A stretch of 40,758 nt of DNA from contig CALBFP010000042.1 of assembly GCA_937894115.1 (NCBI GenBank), positions 1 to 40,758 of the forward strand. Direction: 5' to 3'. The notes beneath the pieces were generated by a model. That model ran no database searches, was not told the origin of the DNA, and worked only from the letters and a program-made list of their open reading frames with translations. The stretch is from an uncultured euryarchaeote (GTDB lineage Archaea; Thermoplasmatota; Poseidoniia; Poseidoniales; Poseidoniaceae). The translations under genes and the position numbers were made by a program. Positions 35,787-39,895 of this stretch are shown one piece after another. Every line of letters begins with the position of its first letter. Within the stretch, counting starts at the first letter, position 1.

Positions 35787-36911
35787 TTACTGTTGTCGTA
35801 TTGCTGCGAAAGCATGCAGCATTTGTTCAATTTGGATGCGCCCTTGAGAGGATCGGCGAAGCCGCACATCACAATCCGCTATGGCTCCAAGTGCTGCGTT
35901 CAGTTGTTCTTCTGGAAGATTAAGCCGTCCCCCTGTAAGAACCTGATGCGCTTGCTCAACAACATCTTCAGCTTCGAGGCTCTGTTGAGAGATTATATCA
36001 TCGTAGATTCCGAGTGCTCCCTTGAGCTTCCGGACGTTCTTGTAGCCTTCCTTCTCCCATCGCCAATCGACGACCTGCCCCCTGAGTGCTGCTTCTATCA
36101 TCCGTTGTACCTCATTCGTTGAAATCATTGTGAGCAGACGGTGAAGATTTGCTCGCTCTCCAAGTAAATTACGTAATGCAAGGACTTCGGTTGTAAAAAT
36201 GGCCTTGCGCAAGTTACCTTCAGAAATGTGCGCAATGTCACCGAGAATTCCGCGTACTGCTTGAACGCCTTCTGCTTCGCAAAGTTCCTTCAATCGGGCT
36301 TCGATTCGTCTTCTTGGTACTGCTGTAAGACGAAGGTGTTGCATCCGACTACGAAGTGCGTCGATCATTCTGGAAGGTGTTTGCGCAGTGAAGATAAAGC
36401 GGGAGGTTTGGCTTGTAGCCTCCATCATCCGGCGCAGGAGTGGTTGCCTTTTATGGCCGAGATAATCTGCATCTTCGATGATGATGATTCTCGAAATGTG
36501 GACTCTGTTTTGGCTTCCACGTTCAGACTCATGCCCTGCTGGAGCGACATCCTCTTCAGAAACACGTGAGAATGTTGAGTCGAAGGCATCGAGAGAAGTG
36601 CGGCTGGCGAGCGTATCGCTTGAATCCTTTCCACCCGGTCGAAGAAAGGACTCAAAGGCGGCCATTGCACCGGCTGACCTTACCAAATCTTTTGCCTGCA
36701 AGACATGCGTGGTAGAACGCCAAGCGGGACCAAGCACCTGGCGAACGATGAGGTTCCACGTGGCTGTTTTACCGGAACCGGGTGGTCCCGAAATAAGGAG
36801 ATGAGGGGGGTTGGCTTGAAGCGAAACCCTTTCAATCGTCTCAAGCGTTGATTCATCGAGCGCCAACTCCGAGAAACGACGAGGAGGATACTTCTCAAGC
36901 CAACTCGCCAT
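35787..36911 (-). CDS. rfcS: Replication factor C small-subunit-like clamp-loader AAA+ ATPase
   Basis: SWLEKYPPRRFSELALDE, Walker A SGPPGSGKTATW, Walker B-like IIIIEDADYL, LRSRMQHLRL near sensor/arginine finger. Confidence 0.85.
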   Translation of the reverse strand: MASWLEKYPPRRFSELALDESTLETIERVSLQANPPHLLISGPPGSGKTATWNLIVRQVLGPAWRSTTHVLQAKDLVRSAGAMAAFESFLRPGGKDSSDTLASRTSLDAFDSTFSRVSEEDVAPAGHESERGSQNRVHISRIIIIEDADYLGHKRQPLLRRMMEATSQTSRFIFTAQTPSRMIDALRSRMQHLRLTAVPRRRIEARLKELCEAEGVQAVRGILGDIAHISEGNLRKAIFTTEVLALRNLLGERANLHRLLTMISTNEVQRMIEAALRGQVVDWRWEKEGYKNVRKLKGALGIYDDIISQQSLEAEDVVEQAHQVLTGGRLNLPEEQLNAALGAIADCDVRLRRSSQGRIQIEQMLHAFAAIRQQ

Positions 36912-37168: not shown

Positions 37169-37789
37169 TTATTGGCCACCAACGAGTGGTCGCGTCATGC
37201 GAATCTCGGTCGCCTGACCAAGGTCTGTTTCCGCGATGGCGCTTGCAGCGATCATCTGACCGTCAACGAAAACCCAATTGTTGGCTTCCTTTGCGCTCGT
37301 TGCGATTTCTTCCTTGGTCATCTCGCAGACTGAGTGTCCTGAAGCGTCTGTAATCTGAACCGTGAAAGTCTCAGATCCACCAACGATGGATGGAACCAAT
37401 CTCAAGACGTTGTCTTGGCTGAGTTCGGTGTTCTCAATGGTTGCTGCATCAACCATTTGACCGTCAATGAAAAGCCAATTTGCATTGTTGCTCGTGAGTT
37501 TATCGCTGAGCTCTTGCTTGGTCATGAGGATGGATTCGTCACCCTCTCTGCTTGCAACAAGAACAGTGAAGGTTTCTCCACCTCCAACCATTCCAGGGTT
37601 GATTCGAATCTCTGTAGCATCGCTTAACTCGATGTTCTCGAGTTCTTCGACACTGACCATTTGTGAGTCGACAAACACCCATGTGTTTTCGTTTGCTGAC
37701 AACGTATCAACGATGTCTTTTCGAGTCATGAGTTCTTGCTCATGACCTGATTCTCGGGCTACGTGAACTGTGAATTTCTTATCCGACAT
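37169..37789 (-). CDS. Tandem triple ubiquitin-like (ThiS/MoaD-type beta-grasp) protein, each repeat ending Gly-Gly
   Basis: 206 aa from ATG 37789 (longer ORF overlaps divergent guaA gene); repeats KKFTV...NPGMVGG / ETFTV...VPSIVGG / ETFTV...TRPLVGG, then Q*; 67, 67, 66 residues. Confidence 0.88.
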   Translation of the reverse strand: MSDKKFTVHVARESGHEQELMTRKDIVDTLSANENTWVFVDSQMVSVEELENIELSDATEIRINPGMVGGGETFTVLVASREGDESILMTKQELSDKLTSNNANWLFIDGQMVDAATIENTELSQDNVLRLVPSIVGGSETFTVQITDASGHSVCEMTKEEIATSAKEANNWVFVDGQMIAASAIAETDLGQATEIRMTRPLVGGQ

Positions 37790-37820
37790 TGTTCTTCCTC
37801 GCAATCTCTCAATATCCAGA

Positions 37821-37828
37821 GTATATGA
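37821..37828. promoter_or_regulatory. Putative TATA element in divergent intergenic region
   Basis: gtatatga, about 32 nt from the minus-strand start at 37789 and about 44 nt from ATG 37872 on the plus strand. Confidence 0.35.
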
Positions 37829-37871
37829 ACGCGTCAAATTCGGCAGATTCAAGGATGTTCTCGAAACTCGT

Positions 37872-38471
37872 ATGAACATGGGCGGTGATGCACCTCTTGT
37901 CATCGATGTTGTTGACAACGGTGGACAGTGGACGCATCGAGAATGGAGAATGCTGAGGTATCTTAAAGTGGATACACAAATCATTCCAAACGATACACCC
38001 GTTGAACAGCTTCGAGAACTTGACGGCCTTGTCCTATCAGGCGGGGCCGCCCGCATTGGTTTGTCTGGAGAGCTTGGTAATTGTGCGGAATTCTTGAAAC
38101 TTGACATCCCCATTCTGGGCATCTGCGCAGGTCATCAGTTTATGGCACGCTTCTACGGTGGCGATGCAAGAGAATCGCCGATTCCCGAATTCGGTGCAAT
38201 GGAAATTCAACTCCATGATGGGGGTGGCAAAATCTTTGCTGGAACCTCGGAAACACAAACCGTTTGGGAATCCCACAACGATGAAGTTCACGTAGTCCCA
38301 GATGGTTTCTTTGTCACTGCGAGTAGTCCATCCTGTGAAGTCCAAGGCATGGAAAACAACGCTGGTGATCGATTTGGTTTGCAATTTCACCCCGAAGTGA
38401 ACGACTCTGAATACGGAAAAGAGATGTTTGAAAACTTCGTCGAAGTGTGTCGACAGGCTCGAAGCGATTAA
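37872..38471 (+). CDS. guaAA: GMP synthase glutamine amidotransferase subunit (GuaAa-like)
   Basis: Class I GATase: DGLVLSGGAARIG, ILGICAGHQFMARFYGG, LQFHPEVNDSEYGKEMFENF; start 37872 or 37878. Confidence 0.88.
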   Translation: MNMGGDAPLVIDVVDNGGQWTHREWRMLRYLKVDTQIIPNDTPVEQLRELDGLVLSGGAARIGLSGELGNCAEFLKLDIPILGICAGHQFMARFYGGDARESPIPEFGAMEIQLHDGGGKIFAGTSETQTVWESHNDEVHVVPDGFFVTASSPSCEVQGMENNAGDRFGLQFHPEVNDSEYGKEMFENFVEVCRQARSD

Positions 38472-39895
38472 AGTTTCAAATTCGCTTGACGTGCGAGCAG
38501 TAGAATGTGCATAGAATGTTCAAGCATGGCTGCGTTTGCCATTGCTTGATCGAGATTGGCCCCCACTGCATAAGCGCCATGACCGCGCACAACAACGCAC
38601 CGCATTCCGCCTTGTTGCAGGGCTTCGGCGACTTGGCGAAGAAATTCTTCTTGTGCATCATCATCAGGGTCAACAATGACAACCTTGCCAATCTGTTCTC
38701 TTCCAAGTACGTCGATTGGTTGGACCAGTATCAAGTCTTTCTCGCAACTGGCGGCTGTTGTGTAGGGCCCTTGCATGTGAATGCAGGCAGCAGGTCCGCC
38801 AGTTACCAAAGCAACTGAGGCAAGGAGGACTTCATGAACCTTCCAATCGGTTATGGAACCCCTCGGAGAATCGCCCCCCAGACGTCCTCCAATAATGCCT
38901 CGATCGTCAAGTCTTGCTAACATTGTTGAGTGGCGTGTACTGATCATCAACCCAGGTTCATCGGGATGGAGCATTGAAATGGACCCCATTGCTCCTTTCA
39001 CCAAGCCTTCTCGACTCAGTTGACGCCCCATACGAGCAAAATCCGCAACGAGATGGGGTGGCACAACGATGTTATCGAGAACAACAGGTGGCATGGGAAC
39101 TTCTTCGATTTCTTCGATAATTTCTGCAGCGCCCACTAGACTTCCACGCAAACGTTCAATCTCTGCGGTTAATCGGGCTATTTCCATCTCGCGTTCAACA
39201 TCATCAGATGATTCGTCCGATAATGGTTCTAAATTCGCTTCGTCTGAATCTTCCGGTTCGGTCGGTTCCGATTCTGCAGGTGATTGTGGCGCATTCGCCG
39301 ATTGCTCAGATGAGTCTGTCTCTGAATCGGCTGACGTTTCCGATGACCCAGCGTCTTCATCTTCCAACGCTTCTTCTTCTGCAGTTACTTCCAGCTCTTC
39401 AACAACTTCGTTTTCTTCTTCGGTACTGGAAGGTTCTTCTGTGGTTGTCTCGGGCGACTCTGCTGTTTCTTCAGAATCATCATTCTCTTCAGTCGTTTTT
39501 TCCTTTTCTTCAGCTGATGGCTCGGTTGGTGGTCCTGTTGGTGGACCTCCGGGCGGTCCTGTTGGTGGTCCCGTTGGCGGGCCTCCGGGCGGCCCTGTTG
39601 GTGGCCCTGTTGGTGGGCCTCCTAGTGGTCCTGTTGGTGGCCCTGTAGGTGGGCCTCCTGGCGGTCCTGTTGATGGCCCCTCAGTTGGACCGGGCGATGG
39701 TTCTGAGGGAGGTTCTGCAGAAGGTTCTGTGGATGTGTCTGATGGCGATTCCGCTGGCGGACCAGACGGGACTTCGGAAGGAAGGGTTGCTTCAATGCCC
39801 TCCATGGCGCCAAATGCACCGTCAAGCATTGATCCCAGAGCGGCTTCCTCTGCTTGTTCTCGGGCTGCTTCTGCGGAGGTTTTCTTGGTCGCCAT
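38468..39895 (-). CDS. Class II aldolase/adducin-like domain fused to a long acidic, Pro/Gly-rich disordered N-terminus
   Basis: C-terminal LVADFARMGRQLSREGLVKGAMGSISML...ACIHMQGPYTTAAS...VVVRGHGAYAVGANLDQAMANAAMLEHS; N-terminal GPPTGPPTGPPG repeats and Glu/Ser-rich stretch. Confidence 0.75.
   Translation of the reverse strand: MATKKTSAEAAREQAEEAALGSMLDGAFGAMEGIEATLPSEVPSGPPAESPSDTSTEPSAEPPSEPSPGPTEGPSTGPPGGPPTGPPTGPLGGPPTGPPTGPPGGPPTGPPTGPPGGPPTGPPTEPSAEEKEKTTEENDDSEETAESPETTTEEPSSTEEENEVVEELEVTAEEEALEDEDAGSSETSADSETDSSEQSANAPQSPAESEPTEPEDSDEANLEPLSDESSDDVEREMEIARLTAEIERLRGSLVGAAEIIEEIEEVPMPPVVLDNIVVPPHLVADFARMGRQLSREGLVKGAMGSISMLHPDEPGLMISTRHSTMLARLDDRGIIGGRLGGDSPRGSITDWKVHEVLLASVALVTGGPAACIHMQGPYTTAASCEKDLILVQPIDVLGREQIGKVVIVDPDDDAQEEFLRQVAEALQQGGMRCVVVRGHGAYAVGANLDQAMANAAMLEHSMHILLLARQANLKL
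39552..39675. repeat. 36-bp tandem repeat, at least three full units plus partials
   Basis: Units 39552-39587, 39588-39623, 39624-39659 then partial ggcggtcctgttgatgg; encodes (GGPPTGPPTGPP)n on minus strand; a degenerate partial unit precedes at 39529. Confidence 0.85.

Follow-up and report, generated by a model that had tools for sequence, protein, structure and literature searches.

Polyubiquitin precursor genes are usually regarded as a eukaryotic hallmark, and the archaeal ubiquitin-like proteins (Ubls) characterized so far, i.e., SAMP, Urm1 and CsUb, are single domains. A gene in the stretch of 40,758 nucleotides analyzed here (the window), which comes from Candidatus Poseidoniales (Marine Group II), raises the question of whether an archaeon can encode several such modifiers in a row. 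Our preferred answer, which we consider probable, is that this gene (polyUbl) encodes a polyprotein precursor of modifiers tailed by Gly-Gly (GG), which would be matured by a JAMM protease and activated by an E1 enzyme. The gene and its parts are as follows.

37169..37789, minus strand: triple ubiquitin-like (polyUbl) gene, MSDKKFTV...PLVGGQ-stop, 206 aa (ORF translation, orthologues, codon-position pattern)
37580..37780, minus strand: Ubl repeat 1 (residues 4-70), ending in MVGG (repeat alignment and repeat HMM)
37580..37585, minus strand: Gly-Gly end of repeat 1, with a predicted cleavage site after it (sequence and conservation)
37376..37576, minus strand: Ubl repeat 2 (residues 72-138), ending in IVGG (repeat HMM; AlphaFold model m40e10a69ef35)
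37376..37381, minus strand: Gly-Gly end of repeat 2, with a predicted cleavage site after it (sequence and conservation)
37175..37372, minus strand: Ubl repeat 3 (residues 140-205), ending in LVGG (repeat alignment and repeat HMM)
37172..37180, minus strand: Gly-Gly end of repeat 3 and its one-residue tail, Q (sequence; tails are common in the family)

The open reading frame starts with an ATG at 37789 and stops at 37169. It is a real gene, because 12 further genomes of the genus carry full-length orthologues of the 206-aa protein (65-98% identity) and most differences from relatives lie at third codon positions (e.g., 21/19/76 by codon position; 58-64 synonymous and 27-37 non-synonymous codons against relatives). 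The repeats are 67, 67 and 66 aa long with pairwise identities of 43/39/39%, corresponding to 29, 26 and 26 identical residues, whereas 20,000 shuffles of each pair gave at most 14. All three close with Val-Gly-Gly and one further residue (G, S and, before the stop, Q). The preliminary description had located this frame, divided it into the same three repeats, noted exactly one residue after every GG and estimated an identity of about 35-45% by eye; all of these observations stand, the aligned value being 39-43%.

To what fold do the repeats belong? An AlphaFold model of repeat 2, built from its alignment with 66 relatives (pLDDT 85.7, pTM 0.70), displays the topology beta-beta-alpha-beta-beta-beta with an extended C-terminal tail, which is that of a beta-grasp. 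Its Foldseek neighbors in the PDB are nearly all ubiquitin-like (TtuB, an archaeal ThiS-like protein, MoaD, SUMO, ubiquilin, SAMP1 and ubiquitin). The best TM score is 0.64 (TtuB) and the E-values are modest (0.015-0.1, none at 0.001) because the domain has only 67 residues. The model is consistent with the beta-grasp ubiquitin-like fold and C-terminal tail that had been proposed earlier for these repeats.

Sequence affinities are weaker. The alignment of repeat 2 and its 66 relatives has just three invariant positions (G12, W34 and the final Gly). The profile of the 67 repeats aligns without gaps to ubiquitin residues 40-76, GG on GG, at a non-significant E of 0.2-1.2 for single ubiquitin. 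The Pfam ubiquitin family (PF00240) stays below significance (best E 0.12, in 1/67 repeats), and ThiS (PF02597; 15.5 of 22.5 bits) and SAMP1 (NF041918; 15.4 of 60 bits) do not reach their cut-offs; both matches stop precisely at repeat 2's GG. That every sequence match to known Ubl families is under its cut-off counts against a precursor. The multi-ubiquitin Pfam domain is absent among the matches listed for the 67 repeats (25 of 34 families, E<=1) and among those listed at E<=10 for the whole protein. We rejected as evidence the phmmer matches between the window protein and PDB chains of polyubiquitin (E as low as 1e-16), because the score adds up many identical copies and the GG residues do not coincide by the reported coordinates; the Pfam matches GbpA_2 and Aida_C2 are at chance level.

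The closest folds include TtuB, ThiS-like proteins and MoaD, and the repeats may accordingly be viewed as sulfur carriers, in which the E1 would activate the GG tail for thiocarboxylation, serving cofactor synthesis or the thiolation of tRNA, and maturation of the carrier would fall to the JAMM. Bacterial JAB genes do occur with sulfur carriers (PMC1779556, rows 4a-4e), but tandem arrays would be unexpected among them, and the enzymes discussed below argue further against this reading.

Homologues of the Ubl are present in 134/294 genomes of the order, and the named records bearing it are MAGs labelled Candidatus Poseidoniales, Poseidoniaceae or 'Euryarchaeota archaeon'. A plasmid search gave no match, and no relative was found in viral contigs using an array of genus g3 as the query. 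One 87%-identical copy in a MAG record labelled uncultured Rhodobiaceae bacterium (L155, CALDQY010000169.1) is most likely mislabelled or contaminated. Architectures were taken from more than 70 loci. Single Ubl genes (GG plus 0-2 residues) belong mostly to the second family of the order (f2). Among the genes linked to an RFC-like gene, the repeat number is 1 in genera g5 and g8, 2 or 3 in g2, 3 in 13/13 genes of g1 (the window's genus), and mostly 2 or 3, once 4, in g3, where one gene scored as a single repeat is masked by Ns. Thus, array size ranges from 1 to 4 repeats at one syntenic place. At L044, L053, L056 and L057 an in-frame fusion joins two repeats to a ThiF/E1 domain, and at L080, L102 and L107 the Ubl carries other C-terminal domains, so that its GG is not free. 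At L102 (4154-4798, G008), beside a threefold array, the gene joins one diverged Ubl to an unassigned domain of 143 aa.

The repeat ends bear directly on whether the array is cut or kept whole. Internal ends comprise 82 GG and 13 Ala-Gly (AG), terminal ends likewise 82 GG and 13 AG, and fused ends 9 GG; the AG ends are those of one group. In the AG arrays AG is found at both internal and terminal positions, so the ends change together, and constraint on the internal ends equals that on the terminal ones. The GG that the preliminary description expected at all repeat ends of homologues is therefore conserved, as GG or AG. The main rival to a precursor is a fixed modifier of several domains, of the kind known from ISG15 and bacterial BilA, in which only the last GG would be exposed by the JAMM and conjugated and the linked repeats would provide avidity. 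It would fit the short inter-repeat linkers (at least one residue) and the short, trimmable tails on most terminal ends (1-6 aa in 91/95 family members, often with a final Cys), and BilA itself is a two-domain Ubl trimmed by its own JAMM (PMC11354881). But a scaffold would not need internal ends that are strictly GG, or AG at both positions in 13 arrays, nor would it lead one to expect a repeat number varying from 1 to 4.

The history of the repeats differs between genera. In the window's genus the nearest neighbor of 33/33 repeats is a repeat of another genome and that of 0/33 is a sister, which places the triplication before the genus. In genus g3, a sister from the same gene is the closest relative of 25/42 repeats over the C-terminal half (last 36 codons), with nucleotide identities of 93-100% in many arrays, compared to 7/42 over the N-terminal half. 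Judging from these neighbors, concerted evolution of the g3 arrays is largely limited to the C-terminal half. This half includes the Gly-Gly tail, and the tail of known Ubls is the part that enters the E1 and the protease. The earlier view of non-interchangeable repeats is borne out in the window's genus, with all its repeats nearest elsewhere, and less so in g3, whose C-terminal halves are homogenized. Unlike those of eukaryotic polyubiquitin, the repeats of the window's genus are diverged and position-specific, which counts against a precursor; their divergence, with positions kept across the genus, would suit a fixed modifier, whereas the homogenization between g3 repeats speaks against one. 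On balance we judge the fixed modifier unlikely.

The preliminary description had looked to E1-like and JAMM-like genes in the same genome, and such a pair does exist, with the two genes mutually adjacent on another contig (G000:C75, locus L003, JAMM at 2106-2648). The window array is not adjacent to this operon, which we count against a precursor; in relatives the enzyme genes adjoin or are fused to the Ubl. In family f2, a single Ubl lies directly upstream of an E1-JAMM fusion (L081-L084, L086, L097 and L098) or is followed by separate E1 and JAMM genes (L085, L091, L092, L099 and L104). In family f1, the order is Ubl-E1-JAMM at L093 and Ubl fusion, E1, JAMM at L080.

The E1 partner has a short ThiF domain (Pfam ThiF, E 5.5e-13) without a rhodanese domain, invariant nucleotide-site residues and Cys (GxGG, D, D, N, Q, K, D and one C), and profile matches in the PDB to UBA6, UBA1 and MccB (E~1e-9). 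By its Rossmann domain, ATP-site residues and conserved Cys, it classes as a predicted E1/ThiF activating enzyme. In the JAMM partner all five residues of the motif E...HxH-x(6-7)-S-x2-D are invariant in 18/18 sequences. Its profile matches an AMSH-like protease (E=0.0015), Pfam detects it weakly (Prok-JAB, best 0.0018), and its model (pLDDT 91) has Foldseek matches to CSN5, Rpn11, AF2198, CsRpn11 and BRCC36; motif and modelled fold are those of a JAMM/MPN+ metalloprotease.

The distribution of these genes points in the same direction. The JAMM is found in 143/294 genomes of the order and is confined to Poseidoniales within a phylum-wide sample of 296 genomes. Among the 294, 121 have both Ubl and JAMM, 13 Ubl only, 22 JAMM only and 138 neither (Fisher p=2e-43, a statistic that ignores relatedness). 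The 13 and 22 genomes with only one of the two, many of them incomplete MAGs, count against a precursor. The specific E1 tracks Ubl and JAMM in 11/11 sampled genomes (present in 7/7, absent in 4/4), and it adjoins the JAMM in 7/7 genomes of the order having both.

For the sulfur-carrier reading, the lack of a rhodanese domain in the E1 and of any sulfur genes noticed beside the Ubl-E1-JAMM operons that were read makes it less likely, and a ThiS-family protein and an E1-rhodanese (L001, rhodanese by inspection) are already encoded separately in the window's genome. A TYW1-like radical SAM gene, which adjoins the array in several f1 genomes, could be taken in its favor, but this gene is not conserved as a neighbor in f2 and we dropped it as a hint of tRNA thiolation. 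Altogether we consider sulfur carriage quite improbable. Still further from what we expect is a non-covalent adaptor, in which the Ubl domains would be interaction modules and the association with E1 and JAMM incidental or regulatory. The Ubls of L080, L102 and L107, fused C-terminally to other domains, are what such a role would look like, but E1 fusion, operon linkage and universal GG/AG ends suggest chemistry at the tail, and the chance of an adaptor seems to us very slight.

Other genes recur at these operons. TFB-like zinc-ribbon genes lie next to the Ubl-E1-JAMM operon in both families (L044:373-1368; L056:103-1215; L081:4871-6001; L082-L084, L086, L092 and L097-L099); the assignment is based on similarity and the zinc ribbon, the L081 copy having no Pfam match, and the protein is a possible regulator or target of the Ubl system. 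A Cys-rich, putatively metal-binding family of 350-550 aa with an N-terminal CxxC...CxxC, often in 1-3 copies beside Ubl, E1 or JAMM genes (e.g., L056:1203-2852; L085:2812-3912; L076:1021-3683; L093:4-2872; L182:2183-3283), is also common; a Pfam scan of three of its members returned nothing. A protein of 80-97 aa just after the JAMM in several f1 genomes (L003:2594-2884; L184:3625-3864) has no convincing Pfam match.

The array itself is flanked in the window by two genes.

35787..36911, minus strand: clamp-loader (RFC-like) AAA gene, downstream (Pfam AAA, RFC lid and Rep_fac_C; synteny)
37770..38471, plus strand: glutamine amidotransferase-like gene, divergent neighbor, whose true start is probably further in

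The RFC-like gene is a conserved neighbor of the array in family f1. Since their linkage is confined to f1, we set both genes aside as functional partners and regard them as syntenic bystanders. Another conserved neighbor in the genus (38468-39895 of the window) encodes a protein that contains extended low-complexity stretches rich in Pro/Gly and in Glu.

Neither an E2 nor an E3 was recognized for the polyUbl system, and this counts against a precursor. The canonical E2 family UQ_con (PF00179) has no match in the window's genome, a result that is uninformative because the same search gave no match in any control genome. The two proteasome subunits of this genome count in favor. The genome also has two further JAB/JAMM-like matches (G000:C55, L109; G000:C129, L110), neither near the Ubl array. 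A second, separate ubiquitin-like system is found in 11/294 genomes, including this one (L002:1378-3614 on G000:C295; L177:1256-11627 on G182:C4; L178:1498-12155 on G234:C1). It comprises E1-like proteins of ~500-520 aa (the L177 and L178 operons have two each), a Cdc48-like AAA protein and fusions of the types UBL-E2-like (...NIY...C...PNPDD), UBL-UBL-JAMM and UBL-X, with weak PADLOC matches to BilD/E1-E2/JAB. Judged by eye, its N-terminal UBL (ending in VAGG) is identical in three L177 genes and almost identical in two L178 genes, which would fit upkeep by gene conversion.

The nearest precedent is the bacterial type 6e polyUbl operons, which encode 2-3 Ub-like domains, a JAB-E1 fusion, an inactive E2/RWD protein and a metal-binding protein Y (PMC1779556). 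Iyer, Burroughs and Aravind likened them to polyubiquitin in 2006, in a list that is bacterial only (PMC1779556). Poseidoniales share the tandem Ub-like domains with E1 and JAMM/JAB, often fused, and the Cys-rich putatively metal-binding protein as a frequent neighbor. The linkage of tandem Ubl to E1/JAMM is present in relatives, whereas the window's genome has array and enzymes on different contigs. In contrast to type 6e, the Poseidoniales system is archaeal and without a multi-ubiquitin Pfam match, its JAMM is C-terminal rather than N-terminal to the E1, its 1-4 repeats lie apart from the enzymes at a chromosomal position that is conserved, and no E2/RWD protein was recognized in the operons read.

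Other systems are less close. The bacterial BilABCD system likewise has tandem Ubl, E1 and JAMM maturation (PMC11354881), which in Poseidoniales would be the predicted route; the polyUbl system differs in that no BilB-type E2 was found for it and its E1 is not of the two-domain (IAD/AAD) BilD type. In Caldiarchaeum subterraneum (Ub-E1-E2-RING-Rpn11), an archaeal Ub-like precursor is cut by a JAMM after GG (PMC5654768, PMC6043591), as we predict for Poseidoniales, but CsUb is a single domain with E2 and RING, neither of which was recognized with the Poseidoniales arrays. Haloferax shares small archaeal GG-ending Ubls (SAMPs), one E1 (UbaA) and the proteasome, and its HvJAMM1 cleaves linear fusions and isopeptides (PMC4443979, PMC4895103); SAMPs are single-domain. 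The Poseidoniales E1 belongs to another, short branch that lacks rhodanese, and its dedicated JAMM is adjacent or fused. An archaeal survey reported Ubls of the ThiS and MoaD types and seldom saw JAB genes close to Ubl genes (PMC2948915). Literature on Poseidoniales or Marine Group II and ubiquitin, in which subscription papers were little covered, gave no account of such arrays; we found no earlier description of archaeal polyUbl arrays, though one may exist. Eukaryotic polyubiquitin resembles the arrays in its head-to-tail beta-grasp repeats with GG at their C-termini, the few residues that follow the final GG, variable copy number and concerted evolution (among the arrays, in genus g3). The differences are the 39-43% identity of the window's repeats, their length of 67 aa, at least one linker residue between them, the non-significant match to single ubiquitin and the lack of an E2 or E3 among the genes found.

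We favor a precursor on account of the predicted fold, the conserved ends, the identity of the E1 and JAMM, their fusion to or operon linkage with the Ubl in relatives, the co-distribution, the copy-number variation and the g3 homogenization, and the polyprotein interpretation of the preliminary description is supported. For internal-site cleavage, activation by the E1, conjugation, its reversal and the targets, we infer the following course. Translation would yield three consecutive beta-grasp modifiers, and the JAMM (G000:C75) would cut after each Gly-Gly to release three distinct Ubls of ~7 kDa, with the final residue trimmed. The E1 encoded beside it would adenylate the exposed C-terminal glycine, and the Ubls would be attached to target amino groups without a dedicated E2, by analogy with the SAMP system of Haloferax, which to our knowledge has no E2. 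The same JAMM may also remove conjugated Ubls.

The polyUbl arrays look like an archaeal counterpart of eukaryotic polyubiquitin, apparently without the need for an E2. A wider proposal, which we offer tentatively and with the balance tipping slightly against it, is that Poseidoniales possess a full polyubiquitin economy, with precursors of 1-4 modifiers, a short E1 and a JAMM, no E2, reversible conjugation and perhaps proteasomal turnover, and that polyubiquitin-style genes arose independently of eukaryotes. A widespread uncultured marine archaeal order bears Ubl arrays whose copy number differs at one locus, which are partly homogenized and have a dedicated E1 and JAMM, and the origin of polyubiquitin, E2-free conjugation and the co-release of different modifiers become testable with small, expressible proteins. 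If the wider proposal is true, precursor genes of the polyubiquitin style would have evolved in archaea independently of eukaryotes, and the window's genus would make three sequence-distinct modifiers in a fixed 1:1:1 ratio from one gene.
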